A stretch of 37,551 nt of DNA from Anaerolineae bacterium (GTDB lineage: Bacteria > Chloroflexota > Anaerolineae > J102), in the NCBI GenBank assembly GCA_027002405.1, contig JALWZT010000305.1, positions 1 to 37,551 of the forward strand. The letters are read 5' to 3'. The position numbers and the translations under genes are program-made. Below, in pieces: positions 1,919-22,174 of this stretch. Position 1 is the first letter of the stretch. The number at the start of each line of letters is the position of its first letter. The notes beneath the pieces are model-generated. The model had not been told where the DNA came from. It did no database searches and worked only from the letters and a program-made list of their open reading frames with translations.

Positions 1919-1928
1919 CTTGCACCTT

Positions 1929-2594
1929 ATGAGTGATTTAGACAATTCCCTGAAAAACGCGCCTCGCTCCACTTCTTTTCGCGGGCCTGCTTCCCTTTAC
2001 GTGGTGGGGCGATCCCTGCGTGGCTGGTACGAAGATTGGTTTCAACAGTTTCTTTTCAACTTTTTGACCACGTTGGGCTGGGCGACGATCCTTTTGGGTC
2101 CGCCCATGCTTTTTGCCATGTACGAAGCCGCTCATGAGCGGGTTCGAGGCCGAGGCATTGAACTGTATGATTTCTTCCGGGCCGCGCGGCACCATGCCCG
2201 GGCCAGTTGGACGTGGGCGCTTGTTAACCTCCTGGTGGGGGTGGTCATTGGTGTCAATGTGCTCTTCTATTGGCAATGGGCGCGACCGTGGTCCATCTTT
2301 CTGGCCACGCTTTTTTTCTTTGCAGGGCTTTTCTGGGCCATGATTCAGATGTATGTCATCCCTTATTACATGGCCCAAAAGACCCCTTCCTTAAAACTGG
2401 CCCATAAAAACGCGGCCCTCACTTTTTTGGCCGCGCCCGGCTATACGGGGCTTTTGTTCTTCCTGACTCTCCTTCTTTACCTCCTAAGCCTCTTCTTTAT
2501 CCTCCCCTGGATTCTGGCTTTCCCTGCCTGGGCGGTCTTGTTGGGAGCCCAGGCCGTGCAGGACCGCTTGCAGGCGTACGGTGTAGAAATGTGA
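1929..2594 (+). CDS. Small multi-pass membrane protein, DUF624/YesL-like
   Basis: About 221 residues with four or five hydrophobic segments. The first, after an amphipathic N-terminus, ends in LGPPMLFAMYEAAHERVRG, a layout like the DUF624 (YesL) family of small membrane proteins often found near carbohydrate genes. Two later segments contain VGVVIGVNVLFYW and a long run of Leu/Phe before the C-terminus. The start is uncertain: the ATG at 1929 lies ten bases after the pgi stop without a good ribosome-binding site, and a TTG at 1920 is an alternative. Close spacing suggests it is read together with pgi, perhaps by translational reinitiation. The molecular function is unknown and the family assignment is by overall look only. 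Confidence 0.75.
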   Translation: MSDLDNSLKNAPRSTSFRGPASLYVVGRSLRGWYEDWFQQFLFNFLTTLGWATILLGPPMLFAMYEAAHERVRGRGIELYDFFRAARHHARASWTWALVNLLVGVVIGVNVLFYWQWARPWSIFLATLFFFAGLFWAMIQMYVIPYYMAQKTPSLKLAHKNAALTFLAAPGYTGLLFFLTLLLYLLSLFFILPWILAFPAWAVLLGAQAVQDRLQAYGVEM

Positions 2595-15212: not shown

Positions 15213-15530
15213 AAATCATTCGATAAGCCCCTGTAAAAGCGATGACGGAGGAAAGTAGGCGGGCGGAAACGCCCAGAGAGAAAGGGTCGTGGCTGGAAGC
15301 CCTTTTGCGCCGAACCCCGCTGAAGTTCCCTCCCGAGCTGGTTCGGTGAATGGTCTACAAGGCCTAGTAGTCGAACCCGGCAGCCGACCGTTACCCCGGC
15401 AGCCGTTCGGAGTGAGGATTGCACCCCTCCCGACGGAACTGAGTGCCTCGCGTGGTCGAGGAATCAGGGTGGCACCGCGGAACGCTTCAGCGCTTCGTCC
15501 CTGAATGGACGAGGCGTTTTTATTTTTGTC
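15213..15530 (+). promoter_or_regulatory. Phe-specific T-box riboswitch leader
   Basis: Typical T-box order: Stem I opening (GGAGGAAAGTAGGCGGGCGG), the AGAGAG loop E-like element near 15274, the specifier region TGAAGTTCCC with a UUC Phe codon at 15326-15328, and the invariant T-box AGGGTGGCACCGCGG at 15466-15480 whose UGGC pairs with an uncharged tRNA acceptor end. The terminator CGCTTCGTCC/GGACGAGGCG with a T tract follows. Uncharged tRNA-Phe should stabilise the antiterminator and allow transcription of pheS and pheT. The downstream genes confirm the specifier. Confidence 0.95.
15491..15527 (+). terminator. Intrinsic terminator of the T-box
   Basis: Stem CGCTTCGTCC (15491-15500) and GGACGAGGCG (15507-15516) with a six-base loop CTGAAT, one G-U pair, followed by TTTTTATTTTT. 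The 5' arm follows the T-box sequence, which competes with it to form the antiterminator. Confidence 0.93.
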
Positions 15531-15558
15531 GGAACCCCCATTATCCAGGAAGGAACTT

Positions 15559-16590
15559 ATGAGTGCATTCCCTGAGCTCTCTCAACTTCAGACCCAGGCC
15601 CAGGCCGAGCTGGCCGAGGTGAAAGATGACCGCCAGCTTGAAGCCTGGCGCATCAAGTGGTTGGGCCGTAAGGGACTGGTCCCCGCGGCTATTAAGAAAA
15701 TCGGAAGCCTGCCCAAAGAGGAACGGGCCGCTTATGGCCAGGCGGTTAATCAGCTTAAGCAAGCTGTTCAGGCCGCTTACGAAGCCCGAAAGCAAGCCCT
15801 CCGGGAAGAAGCCATGGCCGCGGAGCTGCGGGCAGAAGGGTTCGACCCTACCCTGCCCGGGCGTAGACCCCAGGTGGGCAAGCTCCATCCTGTCACGGCC
15901 ACCATGCGGGAAATTATCCGCATCTTCGCGCACATGGGCTTCCAGGTCTACACGGCCCGAGATGTGGAAACCGATGAATACAACTTTCAACTCCTGAACT
16001 TTCCCAAAGGACATCCCGCCCGGGAGATGCAGGACACCTTCCACACCACCATCCCCGATGTGCTCTTGCGGACCCACACCAGCCCGGGCCAAATCCGCGT
16101 CATGCGCGAACGTTATCCCGAGCCTATTCGGGTGGTTTTGCCTGGGAAGTGCTATCGCTACGAACAGGTCACAGCCCGATCCGAGATGATGTTTCACCAG
16201 ATCGAAGGGTTGGCCGTGGGCAAACATATCACCTTTGCAGACTTAAAAGGTACCTTACAGGCTTTTGTGGAACAGCTCTTTGGCGAAGGCCGTCGGCTCC
16301 GCTTCCGGGCTTCCCACTTCCCCTTCACCGAGCCCAGCGCAGAGGTAGATGTGGATTGCATCCTCTGTGGGGGCAAAGGCTGTCGCGTGTGCAAATACAC
16401 CGGCTGGCTGGAGATTTTGGGGTGTGGCATGGTCCATCCCAATGTATTGCGCAACGGCGGTTACGACCCCGACGAATGGACCGGATATGCCTTTGGAATG
16501 GGCCCGGAACGTATCGCCATGTTGCTGTATGGCGTGGATGATATCCGTTACTTCTACAGCAATGACGTTCGGTTCCTGGCGCAATTTTGA
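15559..16590 (+). CDS. pheS: Phenylalanine-tRNA ligase alpha subunit
   Basis: 343 residues, the usual bacterial length. N-terminal coiled-coil tRNA-binding arm (about 1-90), then the class II catalytic core: motif 1 around HPVTATMREIIRIFAHMGF, motif 2 CYRYEQVTARSEMMFHQIEG and motif 3 GMGPERIAMLLYGVDDIR. PheS forms an alpha2-beta2 enzyme with PheT. A CGGKGCRVCKYTGW insertion carries several cysteines, also common in thermophile and Chloroflexota homologs, and may bind zinc. ATG 15559 is chosen because AGGAAGGAA lies at 15547-15555; an earlier in-frame ATG sits within the T-box terminator. Expression is governed by the T-box. Confidence 0.97.
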   Translation: MSAFPELSQLQTQAQAELAEVKDDRQLEAWRIKWLGRKGLVPAAIKKIGSLPKEERAAYGQAVNQLKQAVQAAYEARKQALREEAMAAELRAEGFDPTLPGRRPQVGKLHPVTATMREIIRIFAHMGFQVYTARDVETDEYNFQLLNFPKGHPAREMQDTFHTTIPDVLLRTHTSPGQIRVMRERYPEPIRVVLPGKCYRYEQVTARSEMMFHQIEGLAVGKHITFADLKGTLQAFVEQLFGEGRRLRFRASHFPFTEPSAEVDVDCILCGGKGCRVCKYTGWLEILGCGMVHPNVLRNGGYDPDEWTGYAFGMGPERIAMLLYGVDDIRYFYSNDVRFLAQF

Positions 16591-16803
16591 CGTAACGACT
16601 AAGGTCGTTGCCACGAAGACACGAAGAAGCGTGAAGGTACGAAGTAATTTTCTCTATTTTTCTTCGTGGCTTCTTGGGGCCTAAAGTCGAGTACGTTAGC
16701 AGCTGCATTTTGACATTCAAAAATCACCTCCGCAAAGCGCCCAGCCATGCTCTCTGCTTCTTTTTTCCTCGGCGACTTTGCGTGAGACAAAAGCGAGGCA
16801 ACT
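16591..16803. other. pheS-pheT spacer with degenerate repeat
   Basis: 213 bases without a gene. 16607-16670 contains CCACGAAGACACGAAGAAG ... TTTTTCTTCGTGGC, the same inverted text as the interior of the MITE copies at 23307 and 36437. Their GTAACTAT ends are not clearly preserved. The spacer is unusually long for a pheST operon and contains TTTCTCTATTTTTC after a stem, so it may lower read-through to pheT. Only a weak GCGAGGC precedes the pheT start. Confidence 0.55.
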
Positions 16804-19374
16804 ATGCGAGTACCATTATCCTGGCTCAAAGAATATGTCGACATCCCCGTTCCCGTGGATGAACTCATCGAGCGGCTCACCCTGGCGGGGCTAGAGGTTG
16901 TCAATACCGAATACATCGGCGTGCTGCCCCCTGCATCCATCCGCCATCAGAAGCAGATGAAACCGGGCGACGTGGTCACCGGCCCGGGCCGGATTGCCTG
17001 GGATCGAGAAAAAATCTTTGTGGGCGAGGTCGTGCGGGTGGAAAAACACCCCAATGCGGATCGCCTGACCCTGGTCACCGTGGATTACGGCGCCGGGGAA
17101 CCGTTGACCGTGGTCACCGGTGCGCCCAACCTCAAGCCGGGCGACCAGGGCCAGAAGGTCGCGTTTGCCACCGCGGGCGCGGTCCTCATCGACGCGTATG
17201 CCGACACCTTTAAAACGAAAAAGCTCAAGCCCGGGAAAATCCGAGGCATCCTCTCCCAAGGCATGGTGTGTTCCGAACGAGAGCTGGGCATCTCTGACGA
17301 GCACGAAGGCATCATCATCCTTCCCCAGGATGCCCCGGTAGGCACACCCCTGGCCGATTATCTGGGGGATGTGGTGCTCGATATCGACGTCACCCCCAAC
17401 ATGATCCGTATCGCTTCCGTCATCGGCGTGGCCCGGGAGGTCGCAGCCATCTTGGAAGCCCCCCTTCATATCCCCATGCCCACCTGGCAGACCTCTCCGC
17501 CACCGGCCGAGGCCTATGCCGATGTGGAAATCATCGATGATGACCTCTGCCATCGGTACACAGCCACCATCATCCGGGATGTGCAGGTGCAGCCCGCACC
17601 TTTCTGGATGCAGCATCGCTTGAAGCTGGTGGGCCAACGCCCCATCAGTAATCTGGTGGACATCACCAACTATGTCATGTTCGAATGGGGTCAGCCTTTG
17701 CACGCGTTCGATTACGACAAACTCCTGGCCCGGGCCCGCCGCATCGGCCGGGACAAGGTCAAGATTATCGTCCGTCGGGCGGAAGAGGGCGAAAAATTCA
17801 CCACCCTGGATGGAATCGAGCGCGTACTGGATAAGGATACCCTCATGATCTGCGATGAGGCCGGGCCCATTGCCATCGGTGGTGTCATGGGCGGACTGGA
17901 AACCGAAGTTTCGGAAACCACCCGCCACGTCCTGCTGGAATCCGCCGCGTTCGAATTCATCAACGTGCGTCGCACCGCCAAAAAACTCAAGCTCCCTTCC
18001 GAAGCCGCGTACCGCTTCAGTCGTGGTGTACCCCCCGAATTGAATCCCATCGGCAACGTGCGGGGGGCCCAATTGATGGCCGAGCTGGCCGGGGGGAACA
18101 TCGCGGAGGGAATAGTGGAAGATTACCCCCGCCCGCAACCCGTGGTCGAAGTCCCGGTCACTCCCTCCGATGTGCGGCGCTGGCTGGGGATTGACCTCAC
18201 CCCAAAAGAGATAATCGGCATTCTCAAACGCCTGGAGTTCGATATTCGAATCCAGGAAGATGAGCAGAGCCCTGAGCCCATCATTTGGGCCACGGTTCCC
18301 TGGTATCGTCTGGATGTGACCATCACCGCGGACCTGCTGGAAGAAATTGCTCGCATCTATGGCTACGACCAGATTCCGGAAACCTTGATGGCGGACGAGC
18401 TTCCTCCCCAGCATCATAACTGGCCCTATGAGTTGGAAGAGAAGACTCGAGATATCCTGGTAGCCGCGGGATTGCAGGAAACCATCAACTATTCCCTGAC
18501 CTCCATCGACAATTATCGCAAGACCTTCCCCGAAAACCCCGAGGCTGCCCCTGGGCCGGAGAAGTTCATCACCCTGGCGAACCCTTTGAGCCAGGAACGC
18601 AGCGTGTTGCGTCGTTGTTTGGGGGTCAGTGCCCTGGAGAACCTGCAACGCAACCTGCGCTACACCGATCGCATGGCTGTCTTCGAGATCGGCCTGGGAT
18701 ATCGCCCGGAAGCGGGAGATGGACTCCTCCCTGGGGAAATCCGCCTCCTGGCCATCGCCCTGGCCGGTCCCCGGCGGCCGGGACACTGGCTGCCCGGGGA
18801 TGAGGAGCCCATGGACTTCTACGACGCGAAAGGGATTTTGGAGGTTCTCTTCCAGCGTCTGGGCGCGTGGGAGGATGTGACATTCCGGGCCGAAAGGGCC
18901 CATATCTTCGGCCCCAAGGCCGCGGGCATCTATCTCAAGGATGAAAAGATCGGAAATGTGGGCGAAGTGCATCCCAAAGTGCGAGAAGCCTTTGATTTGG
19001 GAGACAAGCCGGTGGTGCTGGCCGGATTGCGTCTGGACCCTCTCATCCCCTACATCCAAACCCGCAAGGCCCTCCAGCCCATCAGTGAATTCCCGCCGGT
19101 GAAAGAGGACATGGCCTTTGTTGTGGATGAAAACATCCCCGCGGGCGTGGTCGAGGGGTTGATCCGCCAGACCGGTGGCATGTATCTGAAAGCCGTTCAG
19201 CTTTTCGATGTGTACCGGGGTGACCCCATCCCACCGGGCAAAAAATCCCTGGCTTTTTCCCTGACCTTCCAATCGCCTACCAAAACCCTTACCGATAAAG
19301 ACACGGCCAAGTTGCGGAAAAAGATCATGAACCGTCTGCAACGGGAGATCGGCGCCGTTTTGCGCGAAGCATAG
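16804..19374 (+). CDS. pheT: Phenylalanine-tRNA ligase beta subunit
   Basis: 856 residues, slightly longer than the usual 790-820. Order of domains: N-terminal segment MRVPLSWLKEYVDIPV, OB-fold tRNA-binding domain (around VGEVVRVEKHPNADRLTL, near residue 75), B3/B4 editing domain (ISNLVDITNYVMFEWGQPLH), B5 DNA-binding-like fold, catalytic-like core (ETINYSLTSI) and C-terminal ferredoxin-fold anticodon-binding domain (ISEFPPVKEDMAFVVDE to the end). The extra length is mainly a linker after residue 40. The last 50 bases overlap the end of the convergent ATPase-like gene. A full-length open frame on the opposite strand is a composition artefact. Confidence 0.97.
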   Translation: MRVPLSWLKEYVDIPVPVDELIERLTLAGLEVVNTEYIGVLPPASIRHQKQMKPGDVVTGPGRIAWDREKIFVGEVVRVEKHPNADRLTLVTVDYGAGEPLTVVTGAPNLKPGDQGQKVAFATAGAVLIDAYADTFKTKKLKPGKIRGILSQGMVCSERELGISDEHEGIIILPQDAPVGTPLADYLGDVVLDIDVTPNMIRIASVIGVAREVAAILEAPLHIPMPTWQTSPPPAEAYADVEIIDDDLCHRYTATIIRDVQVQPAPFWMQHRLKLVGQRPISNLVDITNYVMFEWGQPLHAFDYDKLLARARRIGRDKVKIIVRRAEEGEKFTTLDGIERVLDKDTLMICDEAGPIAIGGVMGGLETEVSETTRHVLLESAAFEFINVRRTAKKLKLPSEAAYRFSRGVPPELNPIGNVRGAQLMAELAGGNIAEGIVEDYPRPQPVVEVPVTPSDVRRWLGIDLTPKEIIGILKRLEFDIRIQEDEQSPEPIIWATVPWYRLDVTITADLLEEIARIYGYDQIPETLMADELPPQHHNWPYELEEKTRDILVAAGLQETINYSLTSIDNYRKTFPENPEAAPGPEKFITLANPLSQERSVLRRCLGVSALENLQRNLRYTDRMAVFEIGLGYRPEAGDGLLPGEIRLLAIALAGPRRPGHWLPGDEEPMDFYDAKGILEVLFQRLGAWEDVTFRAERAHIFGPKAAGIYLKDEKIGNVGEVHPKVREAFDLGDKPVVLAGLRLDPLIPYIQTRKALQPISEFPPVKEDMAFVVDENIPAGVVEGLIRQTGGMYLKAVQLFDVYRGDPIPPGKKSLAFSLTFQSPTKTLTDKDTAKLRKKIMNRLQREIGAVLREA

Positions 19375-22174
19375 ATGCTGACAGATGAATCGCCCATAGA
19401 TATCCGCCGAAGATGGCGGCCCAGGCCAGAGAGACGCCCCCCACAAACAGATAATCCCAGAGCGTGCGCAAAGGCATGATGTAAAGGAATTTTTGCGCCA
19501 AAGGAATGTAGGTTGTCAGCAGAAAGAGCGCAGCCGAGATAATGGCCACCAGGGTCGGTAAGAAGTATTGGAATTTGAGAGGAATCAGGCGCCATCGCAG
19601 CACAAGGGGAGGACGCAATAAGAGGGACAAAAGAAGCCCCATGGCAACAAGCCCATGGACCAGAGCAATCTGGGCATAGGCGTCCTCCCCATATCGAGCC
19701 AGGAAGCGGTCGAAAAGGAAGTATCCTGTGGCCGCGAGGGAGATACCGGCGGGGAGCACGAAAAGAGCCAGGGTGCGGCCGAGATCTTTGGTTTGCAATC
19801 GTCCCGGTTGCGCGGTGAGGGTCAGGGCCAAAGCCGGGATGGAAAGGGCAAAGACCGCGATAAGACCGCCTTGGGCTCCCCGATAAGGGAAGCTATGCAA
19901 ACGCATCATCACGGCCGGAGCCAGGAGGAGCAGGTAAAACGCCTGAGTCAGGTAGAGTTTCAGCACATCCAATAACCCATTGACAATCCGCTGTCCCTTG
20001 TCGATCATCGCCCGCACGACCTGGGGAGAGGTGTCCAGCAAGATGATATCGGCCAGATTCAAAGCGCCAGAAGGGCCACTGATCCCAGTAATGGCCAGGT
20101 CAGAGACCATCATGGCTTCCAGGGCCGAAGCATCGCCCCCCAGGACCCCCACCAGGTTCCCCTGCTTCTGCAAGGCCCGTACGGTGCGAGACATCAGGTG
20201 CCCCCCTGCTTTGCCAATGAGCTGGTGTGCCATCACGGCCCTGGCCAACTCATCCTCGGATAAACGTGCCAGTTCATGACCGGAAATCCCCCCCAATTGC
20301 TGAATAAAGCTCTCTTCCGCTCCGGCTTCTTGCAAAGCGAGTCGTATGGCTTCCACCGGGCCCGGGTCAAAGAGCTTGGGGATCACGCCGTTGGCCGTGA
20401 AGGTATGCAGCGCTTCGACGGCCTGGGGATTCGCTTGCTCTTGATAATGGAGGTGGCAGAGCGGAATGAGGTCCTCTGGCAGATGGGGCAGGCCTTGCCC
20501 GTTGTGTAAAGGTTGCGGTTCGGGGCGCCAGGCGAAAAGCAAGGTGGTTGTTTCCCGACTCTCTGCTCCTTTTTCCTCCCCGGCCTGGCTTTTTTGTCCT
20601 TTCTGTCTTTCTCGCAGAAGGACCTGGGCCCGCTTGACCAGATTGAATTTTTCCCACCGGAAGAATGATTTCTCTGTGGATGACGAGGATGGCGAGGGGT
20701 CACCCAGGGAGGAGGAAGCCGTTGATGATTCGGTGGGTTTGGGCTCGGGCGCCGGGCCCGGTTTCCGGCGGAATCCTCTCCCCCAATTTTTCAGACGCTC
20801 GGACAGGTTCTGGGGTGATGCTGCTGGAGTCGCCGGGGCTGGGCCGGCCCCCACCAGGTGAGGAGCTAAAACGTCGGGCAGGCCCAGGACCCATACTCCT
20901 TGCATGGTCTCATCTTCCAGACGTATGCCGCTCCAACCATAGTGGGCAAAGAAAGGCATTTCTTCGGCAGGTGGCAGGATGGACCCTTCGAACGCGCCTT
21001 GCATGGCTCGGATGAACTGATTTGGATGGGATAAACTGCGGGCAAAGGTTCCCAGCATTTCACGCAGTTGGATTTCTGTAGGAGGGGTGGTTTCAGGAGG
21101 AGGCGGGACAGGTTCGATAGAAAGCCAGCGCCCGGTCAGAAACCCCTCTTTGCTGAGAACCACGATATCCATCTGAGCCAGGGTTTCGATGGTGCGGGCG
21201 CGCTGGACCAGGACCCGTAGTTTGGCCATATCCACCGTGGCCGTGGCATAGGTAAGGGCAATCATGAAAAACAAGCCTGCTGGCGCGATGCTAAAGATAA
21301 CCCCGATGGCATCGATGAGTTTGTCCACCGCTTTGGGAGGGAGGGGCGTGCTCAGATGGTAATAACGGATGAGTAAGAATGCGGCCATTCCCAGCACAAA
21401 GATCAAAAGCCAGCGCAGGACCCGATCCATGAGGTGTTCCAAAGGGGTCATGCTTTCTTCAGATGGGATCATCCCTTTCAGGCGTTCCACAATGAAGCGA
21501 TCGTTGCCCACGTTATGCGCCCGCAAGATACCTCGTCCTTTCACACAGAAGCTCCCCGCGTAGACAGGATCCCCCGGCTTTTTGCGACATTGATGGCCAC
21601 GCCCCATGATGAGGGATTCATCCATCACGATCCGCTGCCCTGCCAGCAGGCGCCCATCCACCAGGATTTGATCCCCGGGGCCGAACTCGACCACATCTCC
21701 GGGCACCAGGCGATCAGGGGGGATGCTGCGTACCTTGCCTTCTCGGATGACCATGGCCCGGGGTTGGGCCGCGGCCTCTACCCGACGTAATCGCGAGCGT
21801 GCAAATTCTTCTTGAAACACATTGACACCGATGGTGAAGATAAGAACCCCCACGGAAACCAGGGCATCCAGGTATTTCCCCAGCATGATTTGCACCCCAA
21901 TGATGGCCACCAGGCCGGTATTGAAAACCGTGAAGGTGTTTTTGTAGATGATGCTGCGTCGGGTCTGGAGGGGATGGAGATGGATGGCGTTGCTTTGGCC
22001 CGGTTCATAGCGGGCCGCGGCTTCGGCCTGAGAAAGTCCTGGCCATCGCGAGGCCACCTGGGAGGCCAGAGGACGATCCCCCTCCACACCTTTTCGGCCC
22101 CATAGCCTTTGCCAAAGGGTTTGCAGGGCCTGGAGCCAAGCGGTCCATACTGTGATGAGGCGCTCGCGAATCAT
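19325..22174 (-). CDS. Catalytically dead P-type ATPase-like membrane protein
   Basis: 949 residues with the P-type ATPase architecture. N-terminal GLSQAEAAARYEPGQ matches the cation-ATPase start. TM pair (about 80-120), A-domain with LVPGDVVEFGPGDQILVDG (156-174), TM3-4 with PAGL (298-301, normally PEGL), P- and N-domain-like region, and six C-terminal helices. Every catalytic motif is lost: TGES is MGRG (190-193), the phosphorylation motif DKTGTLT is SKEGFLT (341-347), so Asp is replaced by Ser, and GDGxND is GGDASA (679-684). The N-domain is replaced by a Pro/Ser-rich, charged insertion (about 440-545). The frame is intact over 949 codons, so it seems to be selected as a pseudo-enzyme. Transport by ATP hydrolysis is not expected. 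The start at 22174 follows AAAGGTC. Confidence 0.85.
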   Translation of the reverse strand: MIRERLITVWTAWLQALQTLWQRLWGRKGVEGDRPLASQVASRWPGLSQAEAAARYEPGQSNAIHLHPLQTRRSIIYKNTFTVFNTGLVAIIGVQIMLGKYLDALVSVGVLIFTIGVNVFQEEFARSRLRRVEAAAQPRAMVIREGKVRSIPPDRLVPGDVVEFGPGDQILVDGRLLAGQRIVMDESLIMGRGHQCRKKPGDPVYAGSFCVKGRGILRAHNVGNDRFIVERLKGMIPSEESMTPLEHLMDRVLRWLLIFVLGMAAFLLIRYYHLSTPLPPKAVDKLIDAIGVIFSIAPAGLFFMIALTYATATVDMAKLRVLVQRARTIETLAQMDIVVLSKEGFLTGRWLSIEPVPPPPETTPPTEIQLREMLGTFARSLSHPNQFIRAMQGAFEGSILPPAEEMPFFAHYGWSGIRLEDETMQGVWVLGLPDVLAPHLVGAGPAPATPAASPQNLSERLKNWGRGFRRKPGPAPEPKPTESSTASSSLGDPSPSSSSTEKSFFRWEKFNLVKRAQVLLRERQKGQKSQAGEEKGAESRETTTLLFAWRPEPQPLHNGQGLPHLPEDLIPLCHLHYQEQANPQAVEALHTFTANGVIPKLFDPGPVEAIRLALQEAGAEESFIQQLGGISGHELARLSEDELARAVMAHQLIGKAGGHLMSRTVRALQKQGNLVGVLGGDASALEAMMVSDLAITGISGPSGALNLADIILLDTSPQVVRAMIDKGQRIVNGLLDVLKLYLTQAFYLLLLAPAVMMRLHSFPYRGAQGGLIAVFALSIPALALTLTAQPGRLQTKDLGRTLALFVLPAGISLAATGYFLFDRFLARYGEDAYAQIALVHGLVAMGLLLSLLLRPPLVLRWRLIPLKFQYFLPTLVAIISAALFLLTTYIPLAQKFLYIMPLRTLWDYLFVGGVSLAWAAIFGGYLWAIHLSASMLRAKRRRSPVADGS

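Follow-up and report, generated by a model that had tools for sequence, protein, structure and literature searches.

P-type ATPases rank among the best-understood primary transporters. Among them, the proposed P6 family was founded on CtpE (PMC10654040) and is linked to the uptake of Ca2+ by Mycobacterium smegmatis (PMC5615198, PMC10654040); the M4 motif reported for CtpE is VPEGL (PMC5615198). The sole well-discussed candidate found for a non-catalytic P-type ATPase is TMEM94, which keeps the phosphorylatable Asp and is disputed. The open literature covered here (subscription papers fell outside the scope) yielded neither a paper in which a P-type ATPase is named as a pseudo-enzyme nor a published bacterial counterpart of a dead-pump family.

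The window, the whole 37,551-nucleotide stretch of Anaerolineae DNA that was analysed, contains a gene whose product appears to be a pump body kept by evolution for another job. The reading favoured here, with somewhat better than even confidence, is that the protein is one of a family of Chloroflexota pseudo-P-type ATPases with a single origin in a P6 pump, and that the membrane core of these proteins would act independently of ATP and still bind a substrate.

Fold and active site of the window protein

The first-pass annotation described a full-length P-type ATPase fold on an intact 949-codon frame, and both descriptions are borne out. The minus-strand frame is open from the ATG at 22174 to 19325 (949 amino acids), and the plus strand at the same coordinates is stop-rich. 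The gene is convergent with pheT on the plus strand, the two 3' ends overlapping by 50 bases (19325-19374). The only Pfam match is E1-E2_ATPase, an actuator-domain model (E=2e-32); matches to NCBIfam P-type models fall far under their cut-offs, except for the general ATPase_P-type model, which is passed. In phmmer searches, residues 88-353 and 586-759 align with SPCA1 and further P-type pumps. An AlphaFold2 model built with 13 family sequences (pLDDT 72, pTM 0.67) has ten transmembrane helices, A, P and N domains, and disorder at residues 443-540, and Foldseek matches it along its whole length to solved structures of P-type ATPases (best E=2.7e-33). With A, P and N domains set among ten transmembrane helices and recognisable homology, the protein belongs to the P-type ATPase superfamily by fold and descent. 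Automatic annotation, for which E1-E2_ATPase is the strongest Pfam domain, would mislabel such genes as cation pumps. The features of the gene are as follows.

19325..22174, minus strand: candidate pseudo-P-type ATPase gene, 949 codons, ATG start at 22174
22100..22159, minus strand: extra N-terminal helix (TM0), residues 6-25, weakly hydrophobic in the window copy (KD 0.61)
21440..21769, minus strand: actuator (A) domain, residues 136-245, fold and GDQxxVDG kept
21596..21607, minus strand: TGES position, MGRG, residues 190-193, from alignment with intact relatives
21272..21283, minus strand: M4 helix break PAGL, residues 298-301, inside the strongly conserved FSIAPAGLFFM
21134..21154, minus strand: DKTGTLT position, SKEGFLT, residues 341-347, phosphorylatable Asp absent
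20936..20938, minus strand: position of the ATP-binding Lys of the N domain, Gly413 (Gly in 12/12 members, Lys/Arg in 29/29 intact relatives)
20555..20848 (approximate), minus strand: N-domain insertion, residues 443-540, disordered and Pro/Ser-rich, with two basic amphipathic blocks
20360..20371, minus strand: SGDN loop position, FDPG, residues 602-605, from alignment with intact relatives
20123..20140, minus strand: GDGVND position, GGDASA, residues 679-684, from alignment with intact relatives
19817..20026, minus strand: M5 stalk, M5 and M6, residues 717-786, conserved above intact pumps

The motif readings of the first pass (SKEGFLT, MGRG, PAGL and GGDASA) hold at residues 341-347, 190-193, 298-301 and 679-684. 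Its conclusion that every catalytic motif is lost stands for DKTGTLT, TGES and GDGVND and fails for the change of PEGL to PAGL: in DKTGT-bearing Chloroflexota relatives the Glu position holds Asn (17), Ala (9), Tyr (2) or Ser (1), and because 9 of these 29 intact relatives share the Ala, this change is no part of the loss. Further losses were found beyond that list, namely the N-domain Lys (K to G413), the SGDN loop (FDPG) and the P-domain Lys (TPEQK to AGGHL). Within the N-domain ATP-binding motif (F..x.K), Phe408 is kept and the Lys is Gly413.

These losses extend to the degenerate homologues of the protein, which form a clade described below. In the 12 clade members covering the Asp site, compared with 29 intact pumps, position 341 is Gly in five, Ala in three, Asn in two, Ser in one and Met in one, and Asp in none. 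The Arg adjacent to the N-domain Lys is also lost, the SGDN loop and P-domain Lys are mostly lost, and TGE and GDGVND are lost to varying degree. Two members (L028 and L032) retain TGEA and have GTTGTLT, L045 retains GDGVND and L031 has GDGVSD, whereas few copies are as eroded as that of the window. The Asp and Lys were thus the first to be lost, and the remaining motifs then drifted. SKEG is the window copy's own version; other members carry NKAG, NKSG, GKSG, GKEG, AKEG, AGTG or GTTG, and a conserved meaning of SKEG itself was rejected on account of this drift.

The window protein thus fails the features that define the enzyme class of P-type ATPases: the Asp of DKTGT, TGE, GDGxND and the N-domain Lys. 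The predicted consequence is that no aspartyl phosphate can form, and hence that no Post-Albers cycle can run; productive ATP binding is probably absent as well. It is very unlikely that the protein is nevertheless an ATP-driven pump working by non-canonical chemistry, with another nucleophile or nucleotide site. TMEM94/ERMA, which is without TGES and GDGVND, has been reported to move Mg2+ with ATP (PMC13322241), and the motif remnants in L028, L045 and L031 would suit such a view. However, ERMA retains the essential Asp (D427), and a second group describes TMEM94 as being without ATPase activity (PMC12134183). The clade, on the other hand, has unphosphorylatable Gly or Ala at position 341 in 8 of 12 members, on which ground an alternative nucleophile at that site was rejected, and its N-domain Lys, neighbouring Arg and SGD loop are gone too.

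Origin of the family and selection on it

Degenerate homologues, 25-60% identical to the window protein, occur in about 12 further Chloroflexota genomes, some of them as contig-end fragments; the searches covered the taxonomic class, the taxonomic family and 84,980 species. A contig scan of these 84,980 species found no degenerate homologue outside the Chloroflexota, and among 400 sampled genomes of the phylum the source genome was the sole match at E<=1e-110. Within the taxonomic family, 7 of 20 genomes carry the gene, and because of this patchy presence it is taken to be dispensable. A sequencing or assembly artefact was rejected, given about 13 genomes from independent assemblies and constraint at the codon level. 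One metagenome-assembled genome (G173) holds two pseudo-ATPase copies (L032 and L034) on separate contigs, about 74% identical where they overlap, which reflects either a duplication or a mixed bin.

The nearest relative inside the window's own genome is an intact pump (L002) of 843 amino acids with DKTGTLT, TGES and GDGVND, at about 31% identity. In a maximum-likelihood tree the degenerate copies form one clade (100/100) nested among intact pumps and sister to the intact L041 and L076. A second tree groups this clade and intact Chloroflexota pumps with a VPEGL-containing homologue from Tsukamurella (Mycobacteriales), apart from the P1B-, P2- and P3-like pumps of the window's own genome; this places the group with P6 (CtpE), the Tsukamurella homologue standing proxy for CtpE. 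The best explanation of these trees would be that the family arose once, from a CtpE/P6-type cation pump.

Pairwise dN/dS (Nei-Gojobori, custom script) is 0.18-0.27 between family members at synonymous distances of 0.4-2, compared with 0.14-0.25 in two intact P6 pairs; relaxed selection confined to parts of the headpiece would be compatible with these pairwise values. Since the family resembles intact pumps in this measure, a decaying pseudogene is not expected. Such a pseudogene, or a protein whose function was lost recently under relaxed selection while the frame stayed open, would account for the free variation of motif positions between members, the patchy distribution, the eroded TM0 of the window copy and the early stop of a relative (L024/G260), which has a TGA near its C terminus. 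This explanation is nonetheless largely refuted, and is highly improbable, given the low dN/dS between intact members, frames that stay open beyond 900 codons in nine or more divergent members, residues newly fixed in the clade and membrane helices conserved above those of intact pumps.

The distribution of constraint along the protein has also shifted. Mean identity in the P domain is 0.37 in the clade and 0.66 in intact pumps, and in the phosphorylation loop 0.50 and 0.76, whereas M4 stands at 0.65 against 0.52, with overall identity at 0.42 against 0.51. Expressed as clade minus intact, the shift is -0.30 for P2 and -0.26 for the P1 loop, with gains for M4 (+0.12), M6 (+0.08), M1-M2 (+0.07) and M5 (+0.06); the two groups compared are unequal in size and in their overall divergence. 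Positions that do not vary among intact pumps are kept in the clade at a rate of 0.41 if catalytic, 0.57 overall and 0.68 in the transmembrane helices; retention as low as 0.41 occurred in 109 of 5000 random sets of equally invariant sites. Membrane constraint that is kept while catalytic sites go is what repurposing would be expected to leave; under neutral decay, loss would be expected everywhere.

Several features have been retained or gained in the clade as a whole. Among those retained are the membrane helices, a large part of the A domain and Gly344 in what was once the DKTGT loop; the M4 helix break IAPA[GS]L is nearly fixed. Seven residues are newly fixed in the clade and not in intact pumps (A206, R226, D315, A333, G413, E579 and Q744), a count from which the far diverged L033 was excluded. 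The N domain was thought at first to have been replaced by a Pro/Ser-rich stretch; instead, both of its halves align with intact relatives and a loop has been inserted between them, 82-140 residues long in the clade and 20-30 in intact pumps. Its amphipathic blocks are of the types GRLGRLLRR and FRRLxxRxxxxLRR. Eleven other members have sequence extending to the N terminus, and in all of them TM0 is a clear transmembrane helix (KD 1.5-2.7).

In combination, a single clade, loss of the Asp in 12/12 members, dN/dS of 0.18-0.27 and shared new features support a pseudo-enzyme family under purifying selection, with monophyly, open frames and dN/dS well below 1. The expectation that the same substitutions recur across species is borne out for the Asp and Lys losses and the other newly fixed residues, and not for the exact motifs, which drift. 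A lone degenerate copy under relaxed selection, the alternative named in the first-pass annotation, does not describe a loss of the Asp that is clade-wide at such dN/dS.

Neighbouring genes and possible partners

A regulatory subunit that forms a heteromer with an intact P-type paralogue and modulates it would suit a retained fold with new surface modules, and the window's own genome does carry the intact P6 pump L002. However, an intact P6 pump (E<=1e-120) occurs in only one of nine carrier genomes, the chance level (about 1.1 expected from 36/298 genomes overall, P6 pumps alone considered), and in none of the loci read do the pseudo-ATPase and P6 pump genes stand side by side. Such a subunit is therefore improbable. 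An obligate partnership with the P6 pump is not supported, nor, as regards the nearest pump, is the initial suggestion that the protein regulates a real one.

In the neighbourhoods of the carriers examined, no conserved partner gene was found beyond the genus. The one weak candidate is a small membrane protein.

1920..2594, plus strand: small membrane protein with a weak DUF2189 match under the cut-off, a weak possible partner of the pseudo-ATPase

In three congeners (L023, L029 and L030) a homologue of it sits immediately upstream of the pseudo-ATPase; in L023 and L030, where pgi is on the same contig, the order is pgi, small membrane protein, pseudo-ATPase. In the window, pgi and the small membrane protein (164-2594) lie about 17 kb from the pseudo-ATPase; given this distance and the absence of the protein from carriers G050, G286, G100 and G173, it was rejected as an obligate operon partner. 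The intergenic segment 22175-22790, upstream of the pseudo-ATPase, contains palindromic repeat-like DNA (CGACCGAAGGGAGCGAAGC.../GCTTCGCTAGATTCCTCGGTCGCTTCGCTCCC) and a run of direct repeats (tgatgactgatgactgatcactgatcactgat); it resembles a mobile or REP-type element and may account for the shift of the gene away from pgi.

Other neighbours vary from genome to genome (TauE, DUF389, a response regulator, SDR and EamA). In two genomes of another family, a gene for a pentameric ligand-gated ion-channel-like protein (L028:6285-8243 and L032:3854-5875; Pfam Neur_chan_LBD, E=2.5e-12) sits a few genes upstream of the pseudo-ATPase. Additionally, the window carries a T-box leader on the plus strand (15233-15505; Rfam RF00230, 108.6 bits, above the gathering score) directly upstream of pheS/pheT (15505-19374), plausibly a case of tRNA-Phe-sensing control in a Chloroflexota genome.

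Possible function and comparison with known systems

In P-type ATPases the transport path is formed by helices M1-M2, M4, M5 and M6. The sequences show that the phospho-acceptor Asp and the ATP-binding Lys of the N domain were lost in the common ancestor of the clade or earlier, and that the remaining active-site motifs then decayed to different extents from lineage to lineage. They also show the gain of a membrane helix at the N terminus and of an extended N-domain loop that carries two basic amphipathic helices, with purifying selection acting on the protein throughout. Without an aspartyl phosphate, pumping would be impossible. The selected function may then reside in the membrane core (M1-M2, the M4 break and M5-M6), which would still bind a substrate, probably a cation or lipid, and would act without ATP as a receptor or regulator or as a passive gated conduit. 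The headpiece would now serve as a rigid docking platform, with the loop helices touching the membrane surface or a partner.

On the best reading, a P6 pump gave rise to a substrate-binding membrane protein that operates without dependence on ATP, as a sensor or as a passive conduit. A sensor or regulator is tentatively proposed. A passive conduit, that is, an ATP-independent channel, carrier or lipid scramblase along the old transport path, is possible and rather less probable; it would explain why M1-M2, M4, M5 and M6 are conserved above intact pumps and why the M4 break is nearly fixed. However, no mid-helix acidic residue was found in M4-M6, and the conservation may be structural: folding or oligomerisation, instead of substrate binding, could explain the raised M4-M6 values. 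A pure scaffold is unlikely, as is any other role. On present data the sensor or regulator and the passive conduit appear inseparable.

If the family is what it seems, its natural series from GTTGTLT with TGEA to SKEGFLT with MGRG would show the stepwise dismantling of a pump engine. As a selected clade without the Asp, with intact sisters in the same class, it would also make a phosphorylation-free membrane core testable for leak, sensing or scaffolding. The chances seem about even that the clade is the first true pseudo-P-type ATPase family from bacteria, its pump fold having become a receptor or channel that needs no ATP, in which Gly stands in the ATP site and a pair of amphipathic helices binds lipid or a partner.

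With the P6 ATPases of the CtpE family, the clade shares its phylogenetic origin and the same architecture of ten transmembrane helices and A, P and N domains. Unlike them, it lacks the Asp, the N-domain Lys and the SGD/GDGVND/TGES set, and it has an extra N-terminal helix, an N-domain loop of 80-140 residues and a shifted pattern of selection. By descent, then, the window protein is placed as a P6-type member of the superfamily; by function, as judged from its residues, it fails the tests that define the enzyme class.

The closest analogue appears to be eukaryotic TMEM94/ERMA, which was absent among the first 50 structural matches listed by Foldseek. Like the clade, it retains the P-type fold and has lost TGES and GDGVND; it also has an occluded or altered nucleotide site and a long insertion in its N-like domain, and is conserved and physiologically important (PMC12134183, PMC13322241). 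It differs in retaining the Asp (DKQGI), in being eukaryotic and in that its pump activity is disputed (PMC12134183, PMC13322241). Pseudokinases and other pseudo-enzymes, though built on another fold, resemble the clade in their conserved fold, dead active site, drifting catalytic residues and added modules.
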